Positions 1,881-12,449 of a DNA stretch of 28,938 bases are shown here, piece after piece (positions within the stretch are counted from its first letter, which is position 1; every line of letters begins with the position of its first letter). The notes below the pieces were generated by a model. The model was given only the letters and a program-made list of their open reading frames with translations, was not told the DNA's origin and did no database searches. The DNA is from a virus: positions 1 through 28,938 of the IMG/VR virus record IMGVR_UViG_3300033992_000828. One strand, 5' to 3'. The translations under genes and the position numbers were made by a program.

Positions 1881-2684
1881 TTATTTACGCTTTGAAGTGC
1901 CAGGCATTTCGATAGATAAAACCATAGCGCGTAACCTATCATAAGCCTGTTTTGATAATAAGGTTTTTGCGTCTGCTGGTGCAAAGTTTGATACAAAAAT
2001 ACTCTTTTGCCCGAACGCTTGAAAGTATTTGTATCGTAGTTCGATAAGTGTTTCGTTCGGGTTTTCTATATTCCCAAAATCTTTAACGTCGTTTGTTTTT
2101 TTCAAAAATTCATCAAAGCATCTATTGAGCCTAATTAGCATTTCATACTTTTTTACGTCCAAAATAAAATCTTCATACTCGATTGACCAGTCAACAAAAT
2201 GAAACTTTTTAGACAAATTATGCTGCTGTGAAAATTTGGCCATTAGTTGCATCAATTCGGTTTTAAACGTCCCAACTTCGCCGTACAACCAAATACCCTT
2301 ATCAAGTCTCAATGTGCTTGTGTTGTCGTTTATAAGCCACTTTAGCAGGTTCTTAATAACGTCCGCTTGATCGGGCGTAAAAACAATCGGGTAACTATCC
2401 AAATTTTTAAGAGCGGCAATTTCCATACCCCTGCATAAAATCATTTCCCAAAAGTATTTTTTTGCCGTGTCATAATTCCCTTCCTGATTATACGATATAA
2501 TTTTCTTTTTTTCTTTACCATCGTTTTCATCATTCCATATCGTAGCAAGGTAGGTTTTTCCGTGTTCAGAAACTTCGCCGACGTTTTGTAAACTAATCTG
2601 CTTTTTCCGTTCAGCCGCCGCCCTTAGTTCATCGAGCGACTTACCTCCGGCGGCCTGTTTTGCAACTTCGTTTATATCTATCAT
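1881..2684 (-). CDS. DnaC-like AAA+ helicase loader, 267 aa
   Basis: The predicted role is loading the replicative helicase at the phage origin, like DnaC or lambda P in function. The Walker A motif is YGEVGTFKT at residues 134-142 (Lys141). A weak Walker B-like stretch (CFDEF) lies near 189-193, a sensor-1-like SIFVSNF near 228-234, and an Arg-finger-like YDRLRAM near 248-254. This matches the IstB/DnaC clade. The Walker B is degenerate, so ATPase activity is uncertain. The gene directly follows the initiator that carries the iterons, with 13 bases between them, which strongly supports a replication role. Confidence 0.85.
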   Translation of the reverse strand: MIDINEVAKQAAGGKSLDELRAAAERKKQISLQNVGEVSEHGKTYLATIWNDENDGKEKKKIISYNQEGNYDTAKKYFWEMILCRGMEIAALKNLDSYPIVFTPDQADVIKNLLKWLINDNTSTLRLDKGIWLYGEVGTFKTELMQLMAKFSQQHNLSKKFHFVDWSIEYEDFILDVKKYEMLIRLNRCFDEFLKKTNDVKDFGNIENPNETLIELRYKYFQAFGQKSIFVSNFAPADAKTLLSKQAYDRLRAMVLSIEMPGTSKRK

Positions 2685-2697
2685 AAAAAATGTTTTT

Positions 2698-3627
2698 TTA
2701 AAAATCCTGTATTTGTGTTCGGTTTATTTGCGGAGCGGTGTTTATTGCTGTCTTTGGTTTATTTTGCTGATAATTATTTCCATTTTTGCCGCCGCCCGTA
2801 CTTTTGTCGCATTTAATTAGCCAACCTAAAAAACCGTTCTTAAAAAAACTTAACGGGTCTCGTCGGCACTGGTGCATACTGCTTTCTTTTTCGCGCTGGT
2901 AATAAGAGAAAAACGCGGCAATTTCCTGTACCGTTCTTTCAGTTGTCCACCCTGTTATCTTTGCAATATTAAACCAGTAACTTACCTGCTCAATATTTTC
3001 CTTTACAAACTTGGTTGACACGTCAATGGCGTTTGTTAGGTCGTCAACAATAACGGGCGTGACGGGGGGGGCTGCGGGTGTTGGGGGGGCTTTTTGATCT
3101 TCGGTCTTTTTAGAAAAAGAAACATTGTTTTCTTTGTTTTTTTCGAGTGCGCTATATAATAAACTATAACTATTATTACAATAATTATAACCTACCTTAT
3201 ATGAGTCGCCCGTTTGGGCAAATGGAATTGCCCGTTTGGGCAAATGGAATTGCCCGTTTGGGCAAATGGATTTTACTTTTTGGGCAAATGCATTTGCCCG
3301 TTTGGGCAAATGGCCATTTTTCATTAAAAACAATCCACTTGTAGTTACAAAATATGACTTAGTTCTGTCATATCCGCCGCCTTTAATTGACTGAATAACA
3401 CCCGTCTCTTCTAGTTTGTCAACCTCTGTCCGTATCTGCTTAATAGTCAAATATGAGTAAGTAGATGCCAACGCTGCAACACTTCGCGATACTGGCGCGC
3501 TTGCAAAATCGGTGTTATTATTCTTTGCCGCCTCTCTATTTAGAAAGTGGAAATGCTGCAATAGTATTGCGCCAATCACGCCGACTTGCTCGGCTACTGA
3601 AACGCTAAATGAATGGCTTTCGCTCAT
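2698..3627 (-). CDS. Lambda O-like replication initiator with internal origin, 309 aa
   Basis: The N-terminal part has a winged-helix-like region at about residues 45-95 (SRSVAALAS, IKQIRTEVDKLEETGVIQS), suited to iteron binding. Residues 104-140 are encoded by the iteron array. A Pro-rich linker lies at about 180-192 and a helical domain at about 205-275 contains a WLIK segment, probably contacting the loader. The architecture matches lambda O: N-terminal DNA binding, origin DNA inside the gene, C-terminal partner-binding domain, then the loader gene. Sequence similarity to O itself is not claimed; the role is inferred from motifs, iterons and neighbours. Confidence 0.8.
   Translation of the reverse strand: MSESHSFSVSVAEQVGVIGAILLQHFHFLNREAAKNNNTDFASAPVSRSVAALASTYSYLTIKQIRTEVDKLEETGVIQSIKGGGYDRTKSYFVTTSGLFLMKNGHLPKRANAFAQKVKSICPNGQFHLPKRAIPFAQTGDSYKVGYNYCNNSYSLLYSALEKNKENNVSFSKKTEDQKAPPTPAAPPVTPVIVDDLTNAIDVSTKFVKENIEQVSYWFNIAKITGWTTERTVQEIAAFFSYYQREKESSMHQCRRDPLSFFKNGFLGWLIKCDKSTGGGKNGNNYQQNKPKTAINTAPQINRTQIQDF
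3064..3089 (+). other. G-run cluster, possible G-quadruplex
   Basis: The plus strand carries G8 (3064-3071), G3 (3076-3078) and G7 (3083-3089), separated by 4-base loops. This is enough for an intramolecular four-tract quadruplex if one long run is split. On the coding strand it encodes part of the Pro-rich linker of the initiator. It lies about 65 bases beyond the AT-rich tract of the predicted origin. Folding is an inference. Confidence 0.4.
3152..3206. other. AT-rich tract, candidate DNA unwinding element
   Basis: This stretch is almost entirely A and T (3153-3190 has only three C and no G), far beyond its surroundings, and directly adjoins the iterons on the side downstream in the gene. 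In lambda the AT-rich part of ori lies on the same side of the iterons relative to O transcription. It probably melts first when the initiator binds. Confidence 0.7.
3208..3317. repeat. Five tandem 22-bp iterons, predicted replication origin
   Basis: Five head-to-tail 22-bp units start at 3208, 3230, 3252, 3274 and 3296 on the plus strand. The core is GCCCGTTTGGGCAAATGG, containing the dyad GCCC-GTTT-GGGC. Unit 4 keeps TTTGGGCAAATG but has lost the left arm. Because 22 is not a multiple of 3, the encoded peptide repeats only every 22 residues (HLPKRANAFAQ and HLPKRAIPFAQ), so selection appears to act on the DNA. A 22-bp period places sites roughly on one helical face. The array lies inside the initiator gene beside an AT-rich tract, as in lambda ori. 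Confidence 0.88.
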
Positions 3628-3632
3628 AGTGA

Positions 3633-3908
3633 TTAGTTATTAAAAAGTTGATCTTCGTTTATTTCGCCTTGCAAATATTGGTCAATCTTTTGTATTTTTT
3701 CTTTGTGTTCGTTGTCGCTTTGAAACTCGTAAAAACACAAAAACTTATTCCTTTCATTTGAAACATCAAACGGCTGCCAAAATACCGTAAAAAACACGCT
3801 TTGCGTTCCGTCATTTTGAGTGGTAAAGGATAGCGACACTTTGCGCTCCTTTGCTTTTTTCATTGCCATTTGCCTGGTAATAGCAATTGTTATTTTGTGT
3901 AAGTGCAT
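3633..3908 (-). CDS. Hypothetical protein before the initiator, 91 aa
   Basis: I place the start at the ATG at 3908 (MHLHKITIAITRQ) because the small membrane protein gene ends at 3910; an upstream in-frame ATG at 3998 would overlap that gene almost completely. The N-terminal third is basic (MAMKKAKERKVSLSF), the middle is aromatic (SVFFTVFWQPF) and the C-terminus is acidic and helical. No family recognised. The position between promoter and initiator gene suggests an early function. Confidence 0.65.
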   Translation of the reverse strand: MHLHKITIAITRQMAMKKAKERKVSLSFTTQNDGTQSVFFTVFWQPFDVSNERNKFLCFYEFQSDNEHKEKIQKIDQYLQGEINEDQLFNN

Positions 3909-3909
3909 A

Positions 3910-4017
3910 TTATTTGATCGGTAAAATGCCCCACGCTTGCAATAAAAGCACCGCGCAAAGGCCAAAGAATATCCATACCGCCACGTACTGAGCAGCAATT
4001 TTAAAATCTTTTTCCAT
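3910..4017 (-). CDS. Tiny single-pass membrane protein, 35 aa
   Basis: MEKDFKIAAQ is followed by one hydrophobic helix (YVAVWIFFGLCAVLLLQAW) and a short ILPIK tail. The start at 4017 is chosen because the in-frame extension to 4161 would read through a structured RNA element. The frame ends one base before the next ATG (3908), a junction typical of coupled phage genes. It is the first gene after the promoter at 4201-4209 and the terminator-like hairpin at 4032-4117. Its small size lowers confidence. Confidence 0.55.
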   Translation of the reverse strand: MEKDFKIAAQYVAVWIFFGLCAVLLLQAWGILPIK

Positions 4018-4031
4018 GTGAAAAGGTGAAT

Positions 4032-4117
4032 AAAAAAAGCCCGACATACTTTGGAGCAGCGGCTTGGACAAACCTAGGGAAATGCACTTTTCCCAACTGC
4101 TCCGAAATATTCGGGCT
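4032..4117 (-). ncRNA. Three-way-junction RNA ending in a terminator-like U tract
   Basis: Read as minus-strand RNA, AGCCCGA (4117-4111) pairs with UCGGGCU (4044-4038). After a one-base bulge come six further pairs, a mismatch, then GGAGCAG (4103-4097) with CUGCUCC (4059-4053). Inside are two hairpins: GGGAAA-AGUGCA-UUUCCC (4094-4077) and GGUUU-GUCC-AAGCC (4074-4061). The outer helix runs directly into U7 (4038-4032). The minus strand has the U tract; the plus strand does not. It lies between a promoter and the first ATG at 4017, so it could be an attenuator, an antitermination site or a small RNA. No known family recognised. Confidence 0.6.
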
Positions 4118-4200
4118 ACAAAAAAAATAATTCGATAACGTGCAATTATTAAAAGCAACAAAGGTGTCCAATCTTTGCTTTACTTTGCCTTAATAACAAT

Positions 4201-4233
4201 ACAAAGGTAAAAACTTTATTCCAATATTTGCAA
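4201..4233 (-). promoter_or_regulatory. Bacteroidota-type promoter for the replication operon
   Basis: The minus strand has TACCTTTGT (4209-4201), an exact match to the -7 consensus TAnnTTTG of Bacteroidota primary sigma. A TTG (4233-4231) lies 21 bases upstream and fits the -33 element. Transcription would start near 4195, pass through the structured element and enter the replication genes. The operator-like TATTGCGCAA abuts the -33 side. Confidence 0.6.
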
Positions 4234-4234
4234 C

Positions 4235-4244
4235 TATTGCGCAA
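4235..4244. promoter_or_regulatory. Operator-like site, copy 2 (TATTGCGCAA)
   Basis: This 10-base sequence is identical to the first ten bases of the perfect palindrome at 4521-4532 on the other side of the HTH gene, and it continues as AATA. It touches the -33 region of the promoter at 4201-4233. It also lies in a larger dyad, AATATTTGC (4223-4231) with GCAAATATT (4241-4249). Binding by the HTH protein is inferred from position and symmetry. Confidence 0.5.
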
Positions 4245-4258
4245 ATATTTTTTGTGTT

Positions 4259-4520: not shown

Positions 4521-4532
4521 TATTGCGCAATA
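4521..4532. promoter_or_regulatory. Operator-like palindrome, copy 1 (TATTGCGCAATA)
   Basis: A perfect 12-base palindrome in the leader of the HTH gene, starting about 8 bases downstream of the -7 element at 4540-4547, so it would overlap or closely follow the transcription start. Ten bases recur at 4235-4244. This placement is typical of an autorepressor site. Confidence 0.55.
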
Positions 4533-4539
4533 AACGGAG

Positions 4540-4547
4540 CAAATGTA
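4540..4547 (-). promoter_or_regulatory. Promoter -7 element of the HTH regulator gene
   Basis: The minus strand reads TACATTTGC at 4547-4539, matching TAnnTTTGY. No good TTTG is found about 20 bases upstream, so the -33 element is weak or absent. The ATG of the regulator is about 38 bases downstream. Confidence 0.5.
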
Positions 4548-4980: not shown

Positions 4981-6024
4981 TTATGCGTTATGATCAACTT
5001 CATTTTCGTTATCCTGCGCAATAGCATCAAACAGGCCAACAATCTTAACGCTGTTTTTAAATCGCTTTTCAGCGTCTGCCACATTTAGCCTCATTTGTTT
5101 AAAATAACTCTCTTTTAGTTCTATTCCAATCGCTTTACGGCCTAAACTAACAGGGCTAAAAACCTCGCTACCAACTCCCGCAAATGGGGTTAGGACAACT
5201 TCGCCGGGGTTTGAGTATAAATACACTAATCGGTCAATAACATCCAATTGAAGAGGGTGTACGTGCTTTTCGTCGTCATCTTCTTTTGCGCTTTTAAACT
5301 CTAGTACATTGTTATTTCTAATGTCGTCCCAAACGCTTGAAGCGTACCGCTGCCAAGTCAAATGGCTTAATTTGTTTACTTTTGGGTCTTTTTCATTTTT
5401 GTATTTTTTTACAAAATTTTCGTAATCTCCGTATGTTTGCTTGTGCATATCCAAAAAAGGCGTTCCGCCAAAATATGGGAAATCTGTTAACCCGTTTTCA
5501 TGTGTTACGGGTACTTTATTTTCGCCTCCTTTTCTAAATATTAAAATATAGTCCGGTATTGCGGTAAAGCAGCGGGTGCTGTCTTCAACTATGTTTTTAT
5601 GCGTCAAACTTTGCACCATTGTACGCATACGAACCTCTAAAGGCTCTTTCCATATCGTTATACGGTTATTGTAAGTAAATCCGTGTTTTTGATGTAGTTT
5701 TATTATTTCATGTGGAAAGTCCCACAAATTGTGCTTTGTGGTGTTTGTTATTACGTCTGTGCAATGAACAGCGCAAATACGACCAGGCTTTAAAACTCTT
5801 GACATTTCTTTTATAAGAAATTCATAATGTTCCAAAAACGCTTCCGGTGTATCGTTATTACTCATGTCCTTTTTGTCTGAACTGTAAATATATAACCCTG
5901 CAAAAGGTGGTGAGTAAACACTAAAATCAATTGAATCATTTTCTAGTTGAGAAATTACGTCAATGCAATCGCCGTTATAAATTGCATATTTATCTGTAAT
6001 TATCTGATCTTTTACTTTGCTCAT
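4981..6024 (-). CDS. DNA methyltransferase of the SPPF type (N4-cytosine or N6-adenine), 347 aa
   Basis: The catalytic motif IV is SPPF at residues 38-41 and the AdoMet-binding motif I is TPFAGVGSE at 279-287, followed by AIGIELKESYF (motif X/II region). Motif IV before motif I indicates the beta-class order (PF01555). SPP(Y/F) is more often seen in N4-cytosine enzymes, DPPY in adenine enzymes, so m4C is favoured but not proved. No restriction endonuclease lies nearby; together with the phage setting this suggests an orphan enzyme for protecting phage DNA or for regulation. It starts 2 bases after the helicase stop, so the two are co-translated. Confidence 0.88.
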   Translation of the reverse strand: MSKVKDQIITDKYAIYNGDCIDVISQLENDSIDFSVYSPPFAGLYIYSSDKKDMSNNDTPEAFLEHYEFLIKEMSRVLKPGRICAVHCTDVITNTTKHNLWDFPHEIIKLHQKHGFTYNNRITIWKEPLEVRMRTMVQSLTHKNIVEDSTRCFTAIPDYILIFRKGGENKVPVTHENGLTDFPYFGGTPFLDMHKQTYGDYENFVKKYKNEKDPKVNKLSHLTWQRYASSVWDDIRNNNVLEFKSAKEDDDEKHVHPLQLDVIDRLVYLYSNPGEVVLTPFAGVGSEVFSPVSLGRKAIGIELKESYFKQMRLNVADAEKRFKNSVKIVGLFDAIAQDNENEVDHNA

Positions 6025-6026
6025 TT

Positions 6027-7415
6027 TTATAAAAATTTTGGTATGATAATTTTTTTGTTAAACTCTTTGTTTATGTTTGTGTCAACTACTTTATTAATTG
6101 ACCTTTGTATGCTTTCGTTGAATTGAATAGCCTTTTGGGTTTTATACTTTAACGCCTCTAATACTCGCTCCTGACCGTCTGAATAAACCAAATCCACTAC
6201 TACTTCATTTTTTTGACCAAACCTCCAAAACCTTCTAACTGCTTGGTAGTATTGCTCATAAGACCAAGTTGGAAAATATACGGTATGGTTACAATGCTGC
6301 CAGTTTAGGCCAAAAGATGTTATTTTTGGCTTAGTTATTAATCGCTGTATTTCTCCTTTTGCAAAACTCAAAAGTATCTCTTCTTTTTTTTCAATAGTAT
6401 CGCCGCCCTTTATTTGAACCGCGTCCTTATCTATATCTTGCAATAAATTACCTTCGTCATTAAAATGACACCAATACACCGATGTTTTATTTTCCGCTAA
6501 TTGCACCGCCTTTTCGCACCTTATTTTTGTAGTGCCTTTTTGCTCTTCCCTTACCTCGGACATTGTGCGTGCTTTGCCATTAAATAACATTATTTGTCCG
6601 TTTATAACCCAGTTTTCCTGATTTCTTACCTCTATTGAATTTTCAATCAATTTCGGTAAAATATATCTTTCATCGCTAAATCCTAAATCTGAAGGCTTTT
6701 TTATTGACAAAGACCACATATTTAGCCAACTAAAAAAATCGTCTTTTGCGTGTGGCTTTAAATACCATTTATTGCCAATTTCCTGCGGCCTAATATTGTT
6801 CTCATTGTTTCTGAAAAACTTTTGTAGCATATCCATATAAGGCAAATACCCTAACGCTTCGCTGCTTGTTCCAAACTCAATATAATCATTCGGTGCTGGT
6901 GTTGCCGTGCTTAATATCCTGTACGGTATCTTTTTGATAAATGAAGTTATTGATGTTTTTATTTTGCCCTCAAAGTTTTTAAGGATTGAACTTTCATCTA
7001 AAATAACGCCAACGAAGTCGCTTTCATTAAAGTAGTGCAAGCGTTCATAATTACACACAACTATCTTTTTTGTGTGTACGCCGTTCTTTGAATATTCAAA
7101 GTCATCAATACCTAACTTTTCAGCCTCTAAAATAAACTGAAAAGCAACTGCCAAAGGTGTAAGTATTAATACTTTTTTATTGGTGTGTTGAATGATGTTT
7201 TTGGCAATTGACAACTGGATAAGGGTTTTGCCTAATCCGGTATCTGCAAAAATTGCAATTCTACCCTTTTTTACTGACTTTTCAATTATTGCCGCTTGAA
7301 AATCAAAAGCAATACTAGGAATGTAATTTGGTGTAAATCCAAAATCCCCGATTGTGTGCCGCTTTTTTTCTAAAAAGTCAAGGTAATTTTTTAGGCTTTC
7401 AGTATTTTGTTCCAT
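6027..7415 (-). CDS. SNF2/DEAD-like superfamily 2 helicase, 462 aa
   Basis: Motifs run in the expected SF2 order: Walker A ADTGLGKT at residues 57-64, Walker B ILDESS at 138-143 (DESS in place of DEAD/DEAH), motif III STATP at 169-173, and motif VI QAVRRFWRFGQ at 391-401 with the arginines needed for ATP hydrolysis. Both RecA-like lobes are present, so the protein looks intact. Helicases of this kind next to a DNA methyltransferase are a recurrent phage pairing; roles in replication, repair or countering host restriction have all been considered. Translation is coupled to the methyltransferase downstream. Confidence 0.88.
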   Translation of the reverse strand: MEQNTESLKNYLDFLEKKRHTIGDFGFTPNYIPSIAFDFQAAIIEKSVKKGRIAIFADTGLGKTLIQLSIAKNIIQHTNKKVLILTPLAVAFQFILEAEKLGIDDFEYSKNGVHTKKIVVCNYERLHYFNESDFVGVILDESSILKNFEGKIKTSITSFIKKIPYRILSTATPAPNDYIEFGTSSEALGYLPYMDMLQKFFRNNENNIRPQEIGNKWYLKPHAKDDFFSWLNMWSLSIKKPSDLGFSDERYILPKLIENSIEVRNQENWVINGQIMLFNGKARTMSEVREEQKGTTKIRCEKAVQLAENKTSVYWCHFNDEGNLLQDIDKDAVQIKGGDTIEKKEEILLSFAKGEIQRLITKPKITSFGLNWQHCNHTVYFPTWSYEQYYQAVRRFWRFGQKNEVVVDLVYSDGQERVLEALKYKTQKAIQFNESIQRSINKVVDTNINKEFNKKIIIPKFL

Positions 7416-8832: not shown

Positions 8833-9030
8833 TTATGCAAACTGGTTCATAACAGCCTCTATTGCTTCATTCAAAAACTCTGTCGTTACTAATTCGCCGC
8901 TATGCGCGTTTTTGGCATAATTGAAAACATTAGTAATGTCGTCGTAAGATAATTCAGTTGTATCAACTGTGTTCATCCAAGATTCAGAATCAAGCATTTC
9001 TTGTACTGTTTGAAAAAATTCAACTTTCAT
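8833..9030 (-). CDS. Small acidic hypothetical protein, first gene of its operon, 65 aa
   Basis: I place the start at the ATG at 9030 (MKVEFFQTVQEMLDSESWMN), which has the recurrent ACTTAAAATT leader directly before it; the in-frame extension to 9090 would overlap the promoter. The protein is acidic and helical and ends AIEAVMNQFA. As the first gene after the predicted promoter at 9088-9095 it should be strongly expressed early. No family is recognised. Confidence 0.65.
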   Translation of the reverse strand: MKVEFFQTVQEMLDSESWMNTVDTTELSYDDITNVFNYAKNAHSGELVTTEFLNEAIEAVMNQFA

Positions 9031-9087
9031 AATTTTAAGTATTAATTGTGAGTGATAAATAAATGCGCTTACCGCGTTTTGATAGGT

Positions 9088-9095
9088 CAAAGATA
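9088..9095 (-). promoter_or_regulatory. Promoter -7 element for the small-gene/helicase/methylase unit
   Basis: The minus strand reads TATCTTTGA at 9095-9087, matching TAnnTTTG. A -33 TTTG at the usual spacing is not evident. It sits about 60 bases before the ATG at 9030 and downstream of the late-operon terminator, the expected place for a new transcription unit. Confidence 0.45.
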
Positions 9096-9206
9096 AGGGC
9101 GTTTAGTATTACGGTGGTAACATTTAATCAATTATTTTTCAAAAAAAGTAATTTTTATTTTTCAGAAAATAATGAAAGTTTGTAAGTGATTGATAATGAA
9201 CACAAT

Positions 9207-9244
9207 AAAAAAAGCGCAAAGGTTTTCACCCCGCGCTTTTTTTT
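9207..9244 (-). terminator. Strong intrinsic terminator at the end of the late operon
   Basis: On the minus strand a run of A is followed by GCGC, a 15-base loop, GCGC and U7; the A and U tracts extend the helix to 11 or 12 pairs. The plus strand has the same form, so it may work both ways. It lies about 30 bases after the stop of the holin-subtilase gene. The rest of 9096-9273 holds no gene that I can support. Confidence 0.85.
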
Positions 9245-9273: not shown

Positions 9274-11313
9274 CTAATTCTTTGGGAAGTGCCGCAACTG
9301 GTCATTTGTCCACGTTACTACATTTCCGCTGTTGTCGATTCCTGTTATTCGAGTGACGTTAATATTTAGCCTTGTCTTATATTGCGTATAGACTAACAAT
9401 TCCGCAAAGTATGCCGACCAATACACCGCGTCGGCAAAGTCCGAACCTTGAGCAAGCACAAGCCCCCTGTTAGCAAATACAAGCGTACTAAATGCTTCTG
9501 CTATTCTTTTGCGCTCTACGTCTGCATTGGTATTGCTATTTACAGATAGTTCAATTTCTGAAATCGTAACAAATTTGGTACTATTTGATTTAATTGTTTC
9601 ATCACTCATCCTTTTTATTGGCGGTATGGCAGACGGCACGGGCTTCCTAGGTAGCGGCGTACTAGGTAACGGTATATTTTCGCCCCAATACATTTTATAG
9701 TCGTTTTTAAAACCTAGTGTGTAAATTCGTATCGGGCGCACCGGATCGCCTGGTGGTGTTGGTGGTGGTGTTGGCGGTACAACCGTGCCGGGTCTAGTAT
9801 TCAAAACCGCCTCTATTAAAGCGATACCGTACCCAGTGCCGTTATCTTTGCCCGTCGGTGCTATGTCCCTAGAAACAGCCGCTAAATGCGTTTTAACCGC
9901 CGTATAATTAGGCAATAAATCGCCCCATTTAGATATTGCAATAGCGACTACGCCCGACAAAAAAGGCGTTGCCATGCTTGTACCGCTTATTGTAGCGTAT
10001 TGATTATTTAACCAGCAACTTTGAATTGACCGCCCCGGCTGCGCGTTCCAAACCTGTACGCCTTGTGTGCTGTAAGATGAACGCCCGCCTGATTGATCGA
10101 GTGAAGCACACGTAATTGAGTACTGAGACGAACCAGGGTATTGTACGCCTTCGCCGCCCGTGTTGCCCGCTGCAATGCAGTACACGCCGCCCAAATCTGT
10201 TATTGCTTTCATTGCTGCCTCTACGTTACCAATTGCCGCCGTGTTGCCGCCAAATGAACCACTTACAACCGTGCGTACTCCTTGTGCCTTTCTTGCTCTA
10301 TCTTTTGCAAGTTGATCTACTTCGCACAACCTAAACCACTCAAACGAACCGCCGCCCGTTGCCCCTAAAATTTGGTCAAACTCGAAAGTAAGAACGCCCG
10401 ATTTGATAAGGTCGTAACCTATACCGAAATCCTGTGCAAAGATAATACCGCCTACGTGCGTGCCGTGTCCGTTACGATCAATTCCCCGTGCGTCTGTTGT
10501 GTAATTAAACCCCGCCTGTTTGCCTTGCTGCAATTGCGCGTGGTCGGTATCCATTGCGGTATCAACTACCCTAATGTGTACTTTATTCTTGCATTCCGCC
10601 GCAATGCGATTACGGAGCGCGGTCAATCGGTGCTGTTCTGCACCCCAATTCGATACCAGTACGCGTGTCCCGTCCCGTTTAGTTACACTGCTTTCGATGT
10701 TTTGCGGAAATTCACCGGGCTGTGGCAAAATCTCGAAAGTATCCTTTTCAAGTTGCTGGATTTGCTCTATGTACGCGCTCCGTAAATTTCTGTTAGTTTG
10801 TCCACTTAAATTATGACAAAAAAAAACAAGCATTAAAATAGCGGTCGTTTTTGCGGCTGGTAATTTAGGCAACTTTGCGTTTTTAAATATTTCCCAAATA
10901 ATAGTAGCAAGTCCAATTGTAGCCGTTAAAATTTGCTGCCAATTGCCGCCAATGCCCGCTTCAACGACCGACCTTACAGCCGCAAACAATTCGGGCGTAA
11001 GTGAAGGGAAAAGTTGAATAAAAATAACAGATAAAAAGCCCCATGTGTTTGAGTTTTTTACCCATCCAATTGCGTCAATTTTTGCATCTTTGAAAAAGTT
11101 TCTAAATAAGCCAATGCCGCTAATTATAGAAAAAAATGCTTGCACCATCTTTTCGGCTTCGCCCGTAGGAAACCCTACCCAAAGCGTACCAATTACAAGC
11201 GTAATCATTAAGGCGAAGTTTGCGGAAAACAATTTTCCTACAACTACCTCTTTTGTGAGCGGCTCTTTTGCTTTTACCGCGCCGCTTTTTGCTTTCTGTT
11301 TGTTGTCTGCCAT
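9274..11313 (-). CDS. Holin-like membrane domain fused to a subtilisin-type serine protease, 679 aa
   Basis: Residues 1-145 are basic then hydrophobic, with probable membrane segments near 31-48, 57-72, 91-103 and 128-142, as in multi-pass phage holins. Residues 156-172 form another segment that resembles a Bacteroidota signal peptide end (LVFFCHNLSGQ). A full S8 protease follows: Asp251 in VVDTAMD, His283 in NGHGTHVGG, oxyanion Asn384 in AAGNTGG and Ser446 in SGTSMATP. After a Pro-rich linker (511-524) comes an unrecognised C-terminal domain. It ends the lysis cassette before a terminator. An internal ATG at 10833 could give a separate secreted protease. Active-site residues are complete, so activity is plausible. 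Confidence 0.85.
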   Translation of the reverse strand: MADNKQKAKSGAVKAKEPLTKEVVVGKLFSANFALMITLVIGTLWVGFPTGEAEKMVQAFFSIISGIGLFRNFFKDAKIDAIGWVKNSNTWGFLSVIFIQLFPSLTPELFAAVRSVVEAGIGGNWQQILTATIGLATIIWEIFKNAKLPKLPAAKTTAILMLVFFCHNLSGQTNRNLRSAYIEQIQQLEKDTFEILPQPGEFPQNIESSVTKRDGTRVLVSNWGAEQHRLTALRNRIAAECKNKVHIRVVDTAMDTDHAQLQQGKQAGFNYTTDARGIDRNGHGTHVGGIIFAQDFGIGYDLIKSGVLTFEFDQILGATGGGSFEWFRLCEVDQLAKDRARKAQGVRTVVSGSFGGNTAAIGNVEAAMKAITDLGGVYCIAAGNTGGEGVQYPGSSQYSITCASLDQSGGRSSYSTQGVQVWNAQPGRSIQSCWLNNQYATISGTSMATPFLSGVVAIAISKWGDLLPNYTAVKTHLAAVSRDIAPTGKDNGTGYGIALIEAVLNTRPGTVVPPTPPPTPPGDPVRPIRIYTLGFKNDYKMYWGENIPLPSTPLPRKPVPSAIPPIKRMSDETIKSNSTKFVTISEIELSVNSNTNADVERKRIAEAFSTLVFANRGLVLAQGSDFADAVYWSAYFAELLVYTQYKTRLNINVTRITGIDNSGNVVTWTNDQLRHFPKN

Positions 11314-11969: not shown

Positions 11970-12449
11970 TTATTTATTTGTGTTATTTAATATTGTGTAT
12001 TTTGCGCTTCCGTCTTTGCGGCGCGTTGCAACTATCGCGCTTTGTCGGTTTTTGCGGCGTGTTGTGTAAGAAATATGTACCCATTCGCCGAACTCCTCAA
12101 TGACCTGATCGAACTCTATGCCCGACAATAAAATGAGATGAAACAATTCGTTTGCGGTATAACCTTTTGCGTGTATGTCTGCTGCTTCACCTCGTAAATG
12201 TTGTGAATTTGGCGCGCCTCGCACCTCTTTATGTGAATTTAACGCCCTACACCTAAACCCGCTCGAAACTCGAACAGGCGCGCCCAGTTTGTCACGTAAA
12301 GGTTGTAAAACGTTTTTGCATAAAGCGATTAAAGCATCCAAATGCTTACCGTTCGGCACGTTTTGTATGCCGTCCCGCGCTGCAATATCGCTATGTATCA
12401 TTTCACGCAAACTGAAATTTTTTGTTATTTGCCCGTCCGGTGTAAGCAT
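11970..12449 (-). CDS. Endolysin, M15 family peptidase, 159 aa
   Basis: Matches peptidase M15A (PF08291), zinc enzymes that cut peptide bonds in peptidoglycan. SGFRCRALN is at residues 63-71, QHLRGEAADI at 83-92 supplies the ligands His84 and Asp91, and WVHISY at 123-128 supplies His125. The N-terminus (ITKNFSLREMI) matches the family start 'NFtlsEf'. No signal peptide is present, so release needs a holin, which is likely supplied by the genes just downstream. The basic C-terminal tail is typical for cell-wall binding or for late phage lysins. Confidence 0.9.
   Translation of the reverse strand: MLTPDGQITKNFSLREMIHSDIAARDGIQNVPNGKHLDALIALCKNVLQPLRDKLGAPVRVSSGFRCRALNSHKEVRGAPNSQHLRGEAADIHAKGYTANELFHLILLSGIEFDQVIEEFGEWVHISYTTRRKNRQSAIVATRRKDGSAKYTILNNTNK

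Follow-up and report, generated by a model that had tools for sequence, protein, structure and literature searches.

Gene content of the locus

The window, which is the whole stretch of 28,938 nucleotides that was analysed, corresponds to IMG/VR virus record IMGVR_UViG_3300033992_000828. The leftward gene order on its minus strand is an N6/N4 methylase, an HTH regulator, a leader, a 35-aa protein, a 91-aa protein, a replication initiation protein and a DnaC-like helicase loader. The coordinates of the genes and of the leader elements are collected in Table 1.

Table 1. Features of the replication-operon leader and the adjoining genes, in window coordinates
Feature	Position	Strand	Details
DnaC-like helicase loader	1881..2684	-	weak match, PHROG 50, E 0.0045
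Replication initiation protein	2698..3627	-	PHROG 11233, E 1e-12
91-aa protein	3633..3908	-	PHROG 3119 (no function assigned)
Hydrophobic membrane-protein ORF, 35 aa (35 codons)	3910..4017	-	first gene past the terminator; 92-95% DNA identity in relatives
U7 tract, terminator tail	4032..4038	-	U7 also in L002; weaker UUCUUUU in L005
Three-way junction (3WJ) RNA	4038..4117	-	80 nt; outer helix is the terminator stem; from folding and covariation
Inner hairpin 2	4061..4074	-	element UGUCCAA (4070-4064) pairs with site 1
Inner hairpin 1	4077..4094	-	loop element GUGCA (4087-4083) pairs with site 2
Site 2 (a1-like)	4140..4144	-	UGCAC, in the linker past the leader hairpin; complementary to loop 1
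5' leader hairpin	4146..4196	-	outer helix UUAUUAA/UUAAUAA; inner stem-loop presents site 1; same fold in 3/3 phages
Site 1 (b1-like)	4165..4171	-	UUGGACA, in the leader hairpin loop; complementary to loop 2
P2 -7 box	4202..4209	-	TACCTTTG, Bacteroidota type, TAnnTTTG match; GTTG 21 nt upstream (4234-4231)
Operator-like inverted repeat	4223..4249	.	perfect 9 bp, AATATTTGC-N9-GCAAATATT; overlaps the P2 -33 region; kept in 3/3 phages
HTH regulator, 80 aa	4259..4501	-	weak match to PHROG 4779 'transcriptional regulator'; 84-85% identity in relatives
Palindrome	4521..4532	.	TATTGCGCAATA, right downstream of P1; has TTGCGCAATA in common with the P2 operator; in 3/3 phages
P1 -7 box	4540..4547	-	TACATTTG, promoter for the HTH regulator, TAnnTTTG match; kept in L005 (by eye)

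Two further IMG/VR contigs, IMGVR_UViG_3300046776_000001 (L002) and IMGVR_UViG_3300034013_000646 (L005), are the sole relatives found to carry this region among viral contigs, phage records and species genomes. The viral contigs were queried with the replication protein, the HTH regulator, the 91-aa protein, the operator DNA, the terminator DNA and a gapped 3WJ pattern. The pattern matches L015-L017 fail the 3WJ model, have no 3WJ and were rejected as further relatives. The phage DNA similarity search gives short chance matches only. The HTH query returns nothing from the genome contigs and the capsid query returns one weak match to a Thermomonas MAG, so that no host genome or prophage was found. 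The relatives of the tape-measure protein include those of Cellulophaga and Bacteroides phages, which fits a Bacteroidota host. Lysogeny and classical immunity are unproven, since no integrase or resolvase was found in the window, L002 or L005.

Several features of the wider region are variable. The 91-aa protein of L005 (5001-5282) is followed by a second, similar-looking protein (5287-5568), and the replication initiator of this phage differs from that of the window. The N6/N4 DNA methylase adjoins an SNF2/DEAD-type helicase at 4981-7415, and L002 has a different methylase in its place; the cassette differs between relatives and may act in anti-restriction or counter-defence. The region at 9274-11313 encodes a subtilase (Peptidase_S8) with an N-terminal hydrophobic part that is possibly holin-like, and lies next to an endolysin (11970-12449). 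The counterpart of the subtilase region in contig G001 consists of two separate ORFs (32063-32518 and 30531-31985).

Promoters and regulator

The P2 assignment is based on the consensus TAnnTTTG, which we take to be the -7 box of Bacteroidota-type promoters. Transcription from P2 is predicted to start at about 4196, a start that we infer from the box position. The sequence TTGCGCAATA is present both at the promoter of the HTH gene (4521-4532) and in the P2 operator (4235-4244) in 3/3 phages. This suggests that the HTH protein probably represses P2 and, by autoregulation, its own promoter. Site pairs of TTGCGCAA also occur at 2318-2354 of G001 and at 41180-41216 of contig G002.

The minus strand from the terminator to 2456 contains no TAnnTTTG box, and the replication genes therefore appear to need read-through of the terminator. 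The plus strand between 2963 and 5377 likewise contains no promoter-like TAnnTTTG. One TAnnTTTG lies inside hairpin 2 (4076-4069); it is missing from both relatives and was rejected as an internal promoter. A dispersed repeat of about 100-175 bp at 9026-9212 comprises the core box TATCTTTG (9095-9088, minus strand) and a common upstream AT-rich tract, and has several copies in both related contigs (G001 and G002). It looks like a multi-copy phage promoter, and was rejected as another copy of the RNA.

Structure of the three-way junction

The minus strand from 4120 to 4025 folds into two hairpins of 6 and 5 bp enclosed by an outer helix. This helix has 13 + 8 bp and is interrupted by a single 1x1 mismatch and a single bulge. 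The minimum free energy of the 3WJ is -39.8 kcal/mol, compared to -21.4 +/- 3.2 kcal/mol for shuffled sequences (z -5.84, 0/200). The first-pass annotation had described this same long outer helix with 6- and 5-bp hairpins and a U7 tail, and refolding reproduces it exactly. The ATG of the 35-codon ORF at 4017 lies 14 nt past the U-tract, in agreement with the earlier coordinates. The features of an intrinsic terminator are present, namely a GC-rich AGCCCGA/UCGGGCU stem followed by U7 in the window and L002, and by UUCUUUU in L005. As regards RNase P processing at the base of helix P1, a trait of C4 RNA, the 5' end of the 3WJ helix has no GGW motif. The 5' arm of the outer helix (4115-4103, minus strand) holds a hairpin of its own, CCGAA-UAU-UUCGG (CCGGA-UAU-UUCGG in L005), and this hairpin and the terminator stem are mutually exclusive.

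The earlier statement that the fold is seen on the minus strand only does not hold, as the opposite strand folds almost equally well (-36.5 kcal/mol in the window, -42.0 and -40.3 kcal/mol in the two relatives). What places the RNA on the minus strand is instead the U-tract, together with the direction of the promoter and a U-G pair of the outer helix that is invariant.

L002 and L005 fold into the same 3WJ (-41.0 and -39.5 kcal/mol), at about equal distances to P2 and to the ATG. The alignment of the three sequences has 94.6% of its cells paired, and 8 of the 31 pairs are changed on both sides, which is equalled in 2/500 shuffles; these counts are small because they come from three sequences of a single phage group. 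The changes are distributed across all three helices, and pairing falls to about 50% when the partner is slid by one column. Covariation in homologues had been proposed as the check on this structure, and its presence among the three phages bears out the earlier view that the RNA is more than a plain terminator. The proposal of a structured terminator or attenuator RNA, about 165 nt long and located in the leader of the replication operon, is likewise supported.

The first-pass annotation had also considered an antitermination site like the put RNA of phage HK022, which would modify RNA polymerase to pass downstream terminators. The structured, promoter-proximal leader, with its hairpins right past an early promoter, would suit such an RNA. 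In contrast, the 3WJ ends in its own terminator and no need to read through further terminators emerged; to our knowledge, put RNAs do not have loops that are complementary to their leader, which also counts against this explanation. Positive evidence for it was not found, and it is very improbable.

Complementarity between loops and leader sites

The earlier reading missed that the two hairpin loops are complementary to the leader, and this complementarity explains the inner hairpins. Hairpin 2 and site 1 read UGUCCAA/UUGGACA in the window, UGUCUAA/UUAGACA in L002 and AUCC/GGAU in L005. In the same order of phages, the hairpin 1 loop and site 2 read GUGCA/UGCAC, UGUAUC/GAUACA and ACGCC/GGCGU. 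The sites are at homologous positions in the three leaders, one in a hairpin loop and the other in the linker that follows. The outer helix of the leader hairpin also differs in each phage, with compensated pairs (UUAUUAA/UUAAUAA in the window, UUAUUUG/CAAAUAG and UUAUUGAAGCAC/GUGUUUUAAUAA in the others), and the energy of this hairpin alone is no better than that of shuffles.

The pairing was tested by scanning the entire transcribed leader and admitting only positions common to the three phages; shuffled loops served as the null. Loop 1 pairs with -24.6 kcal/mol against a null of -11.0 +/- 2.5 kcal/mol (0/10,000 shuffles), and loop 2 with -21.4 kcal/mol against -10.7 +/- 2.4 kcal/mol (4/10,000 shuffles). 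When the loops are assigned to the wrong phage, the summed pairing is weaker in every assignment. The weak case is site 1 and loop 2 of L005, with 4 continuous bp and -4.6 kcal/mol, and the leader of this phage pairs slightly better with loop 2 of the other phages. Base pairing between the loops and the sites is thus well supported by comparison of the three sequences. A word search of the three phage genomes found no conserved second target pair elsewhere. The downstream region is 85-97% identical while the loops differ, which indicates that it contains no second target of the P1/P4 kind.

The identity among the phages is 96-100% in the P2 promoter and operator, 91-97% in the downstream genes, 85-95% from the U-tract to the ATG, and 77-95% in the outer helix. 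It is only 43-67% in the leader hairpin, 29-50% in site 2 and the linker, and 49-57% in the inner hairpins. The loops and sites are 29-67% identical, compared to 85-100% for the promoter, the operator and the flanking genes. The complementary parts change fastest and keep their match, which is the pattern expected of specificity determinants, as in immunity or copy control.

This pattern bears on two other explanations. A plain terminator, with inner hairpins of no role, would end a short P2 RNA or limit read-through to the replication genes by a fixed fraction. The stable GC-rich lower stem and the U7 tract are as expected of one, and the operon can tolerate constitutive leakage. However, the inner hairpins change fast yet keep pairing, the loops match leader sites in each phage, and L005 keeps the 3WJ despite its broken U-tract; a plain terminator is improbable. 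A ligand riboswitch with the 3WJ as its aptamer had also been suggested. Three-way junction aptamers exist, which counts in its favour, and the structure sits ahead of an operon. Nevertheless, the hairpin loops and junction strands are variable and the outer helix alone is conserved, the RNA has no Rfam match, and the operon is one of replication and not of metabolism. Nothing positive points to control by a ligand, and a riboswitch is the least credible of the explanations weighed.

Comparison with C4, P4 CI and pT181 systems

C4 RNA: The Rfam searches, run at the gathering threshold and at E <= 10, give only chance matches in the window, for example mir-268. The C4 antisense RNA model RF01695, searched at E <= 10, finds nothing in the contigs of the window, L002 and L005, whereas in the positive controls it matches P1 c4 and P4 CI RNA with 68.8 and 74.9 bits. 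The models c4-a1b1 (RF03163) and isrK match upstream of the C4 RNA in P4 and P1, and at E <= 10 the isrK model (RF01394) finds nothing in the window. Even though the RNA scores no match, the C4 family has its shape, contrary to the earlier remark that no named family does. In the C4 consensus, the outer helix of the 3WJ has 17 bp and its two hairpins have 5 bp each; the C4 RNA of phages P1/P7 is a junction of about 80-88 nt. The 80-nt 3WJ of the three phages corresponds to the C4 plan of helices P1, P2 and P3 in about 77-87 nt. As in P4 and P1, two elements of the RNA are complementary to upstream leader sites in the same transcript. The RNA is also on the same strand as its target, and its specificity elements are variable.

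The window RNA differs from C4 RNA in several respects. C4 RNA has a constant tetraloop on P2 and its b' element in a junction strand, whereas both hairpin loops in the window are variable and complementary. C4 RNA has a second target at a downstream ribosome binding site (a2, b2), and none was found in the window. The C4 outer helix has no U-tail, while that of the window ends in U7. C4 RNA is recorded only in Proteobacteria and their phages (Weinberg 2010 table, PMC2864571), in contrast to the Bacteroidota-type phage of the window. A literature search did not find immunity by RNAs of the C4/CI kind outside Proteobacteria and their phages. The window RNA is C4/CI-like by plan and does not score as a member of RF01695.

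P4 CI RNA: The CI RNA of P4 pairs with the upstream seqA and causes termination ahead of the replication genes (PMC4825925), and the C4 RNA of P1/P7 confers immunity whose specificity is set by a few loop bases (PMC5320573). The P4 pairs are b' UUCUCAC with b1 GUGAGAA in the leader hairpin loop, and a' CCUGUGAA with a1 UUCACAGG in the linker. The order is alike in P4, P1 and the window and is antiparallel: the first site lies in the hairpin loop and has the 3' element as its partner, and the second lies in the linker and has the 5' element as its partner. The arrangement in the window also resembles P4 CI/seqA-isrK in its replication-operon leader, in having one site in a hairpin loop and one in a linker ahead of the 3WJ, and in a terminator within the leader; control by premature termination would be expected here too. 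In contrast, P4 has a separate isrK-type terminator between the sites and the CI RNA. The outer helix of the window RNA ends in U7, so that the 3WJ is itself the terminator and a separate one is absent. P4 also has a second target, seqC, downstream, and no seqC equivalent was found in the window.

pT181-type plasmids: These plasmids have RNA-controlled termination ahead of the replication initiator gene, with an antisense RNA from the opposite strand. The window is similar in the proposed RNA-controlled termination before a replication initiator gene. It differs in the strand, as the plus strand lacks promoter boxes of the consensus in the interval given above.

Proposed mechanism

It is fairly probable that the RNA is a C4/CI-RNA-like same-strand antisense RNA, made from P2 in the replication-operon leader and controlling termination. 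This reading builds on parts obtained computationally: the 3WJ, the leader hairpin, the loop-site complementarity kept despite sequence change, and the gene order. The trans action, the direction of control and the immunity are what we infer from them, and would take the following form. P2, which is probably repressed by the HTH protein, would give a leader that comprises the site-1 hairpin, the site-2 linker and the 3WJ. Terminated or processed transcripts would carry the 3WJ, and its two loops would kiss sites 1 and 2 of either a second nascent leader (in trans) or their own molecule (in cis). Before the 3' arm is transcribed, site 1 may pair with hairpin 2 in cis and thereby keep the outer-helix 5' arm in a different fold, and read-through into the replication genes would be favoured. 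In trans, a 3WJ RNA would occupy sites 1 and 2 and leave the nascent 3WJ free to close, and transcription would then stop 14 nt ahead of the first gene. Such a circuit may control the copy number, or confer immunity to phages that share the loop type. As no integrase or resolvase was found in the three contigs, its role may lie in copy control, or in exclusion by a phage that is not integrated, instead of classical lysogenic immunity.

Folding was computed for the transcript with and without the 3' arm. Before the terminator 3' arm, the fold with site 1 paired to loop 2 is within 0-3 kcal/mol of the minimum free energy in 3/3 phages, and includes the CCGAA-UAU-UUCGG hairpin. The terminator fold of the full transcript wins by 13-16 kcal/mol at equilibrium, which makes the antiterminator step speculative.

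These energies also bear on a cis-only attenuator, in which the loops would pair with their own leader, by double kissing or as an alternative fold, and folding kinetics, a protein or a ligand would set the terminator efficiency. All the complementary elements are on one transcript, and the alternative fold of site 1 with loop 2 is accessible before the terminator arm, as such an attenuator would have it. On the other hand, it is not obvious why a purely structural contact would change every one of its letters when the promoter and the genes are 85-100% identical, and C4/CI RNA, the closest known system with this anatomy, is trans-acting (PMC4825925, PMC5320573). Control in cis alone is doubtful, though to be taken seriously; the sequence itself cannot separate pairing in cis from pairing in trans.

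Significance

The antisense reading may be carried one step further. The chances are about even that the locus encodes a self-contained immunity or copy-control switch of a Bacteroidota phage, in which antisense RNA and terminator are one structure, with two hypervariable kissing loops that recognise the leader and an outer helix that ends transcription. If true, this switch would parallel the C4/CI RNA system, either as an independent counterpart or as a very diverged one, and the fused terminator would make it the simplest version known. A working counterpart in another phylum would mean that phages arrive at, or have in common, one solution, which is a same-strand antisense RNA with two specificity loops that acts ahead of the replication genes. 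The fast-changing pairs of loops and sites would give direct, swappable predictions of mutual exclusion between phages. Three-way junction terminators with loops that match their own leaders would also offer a search route to switches that family models miss.
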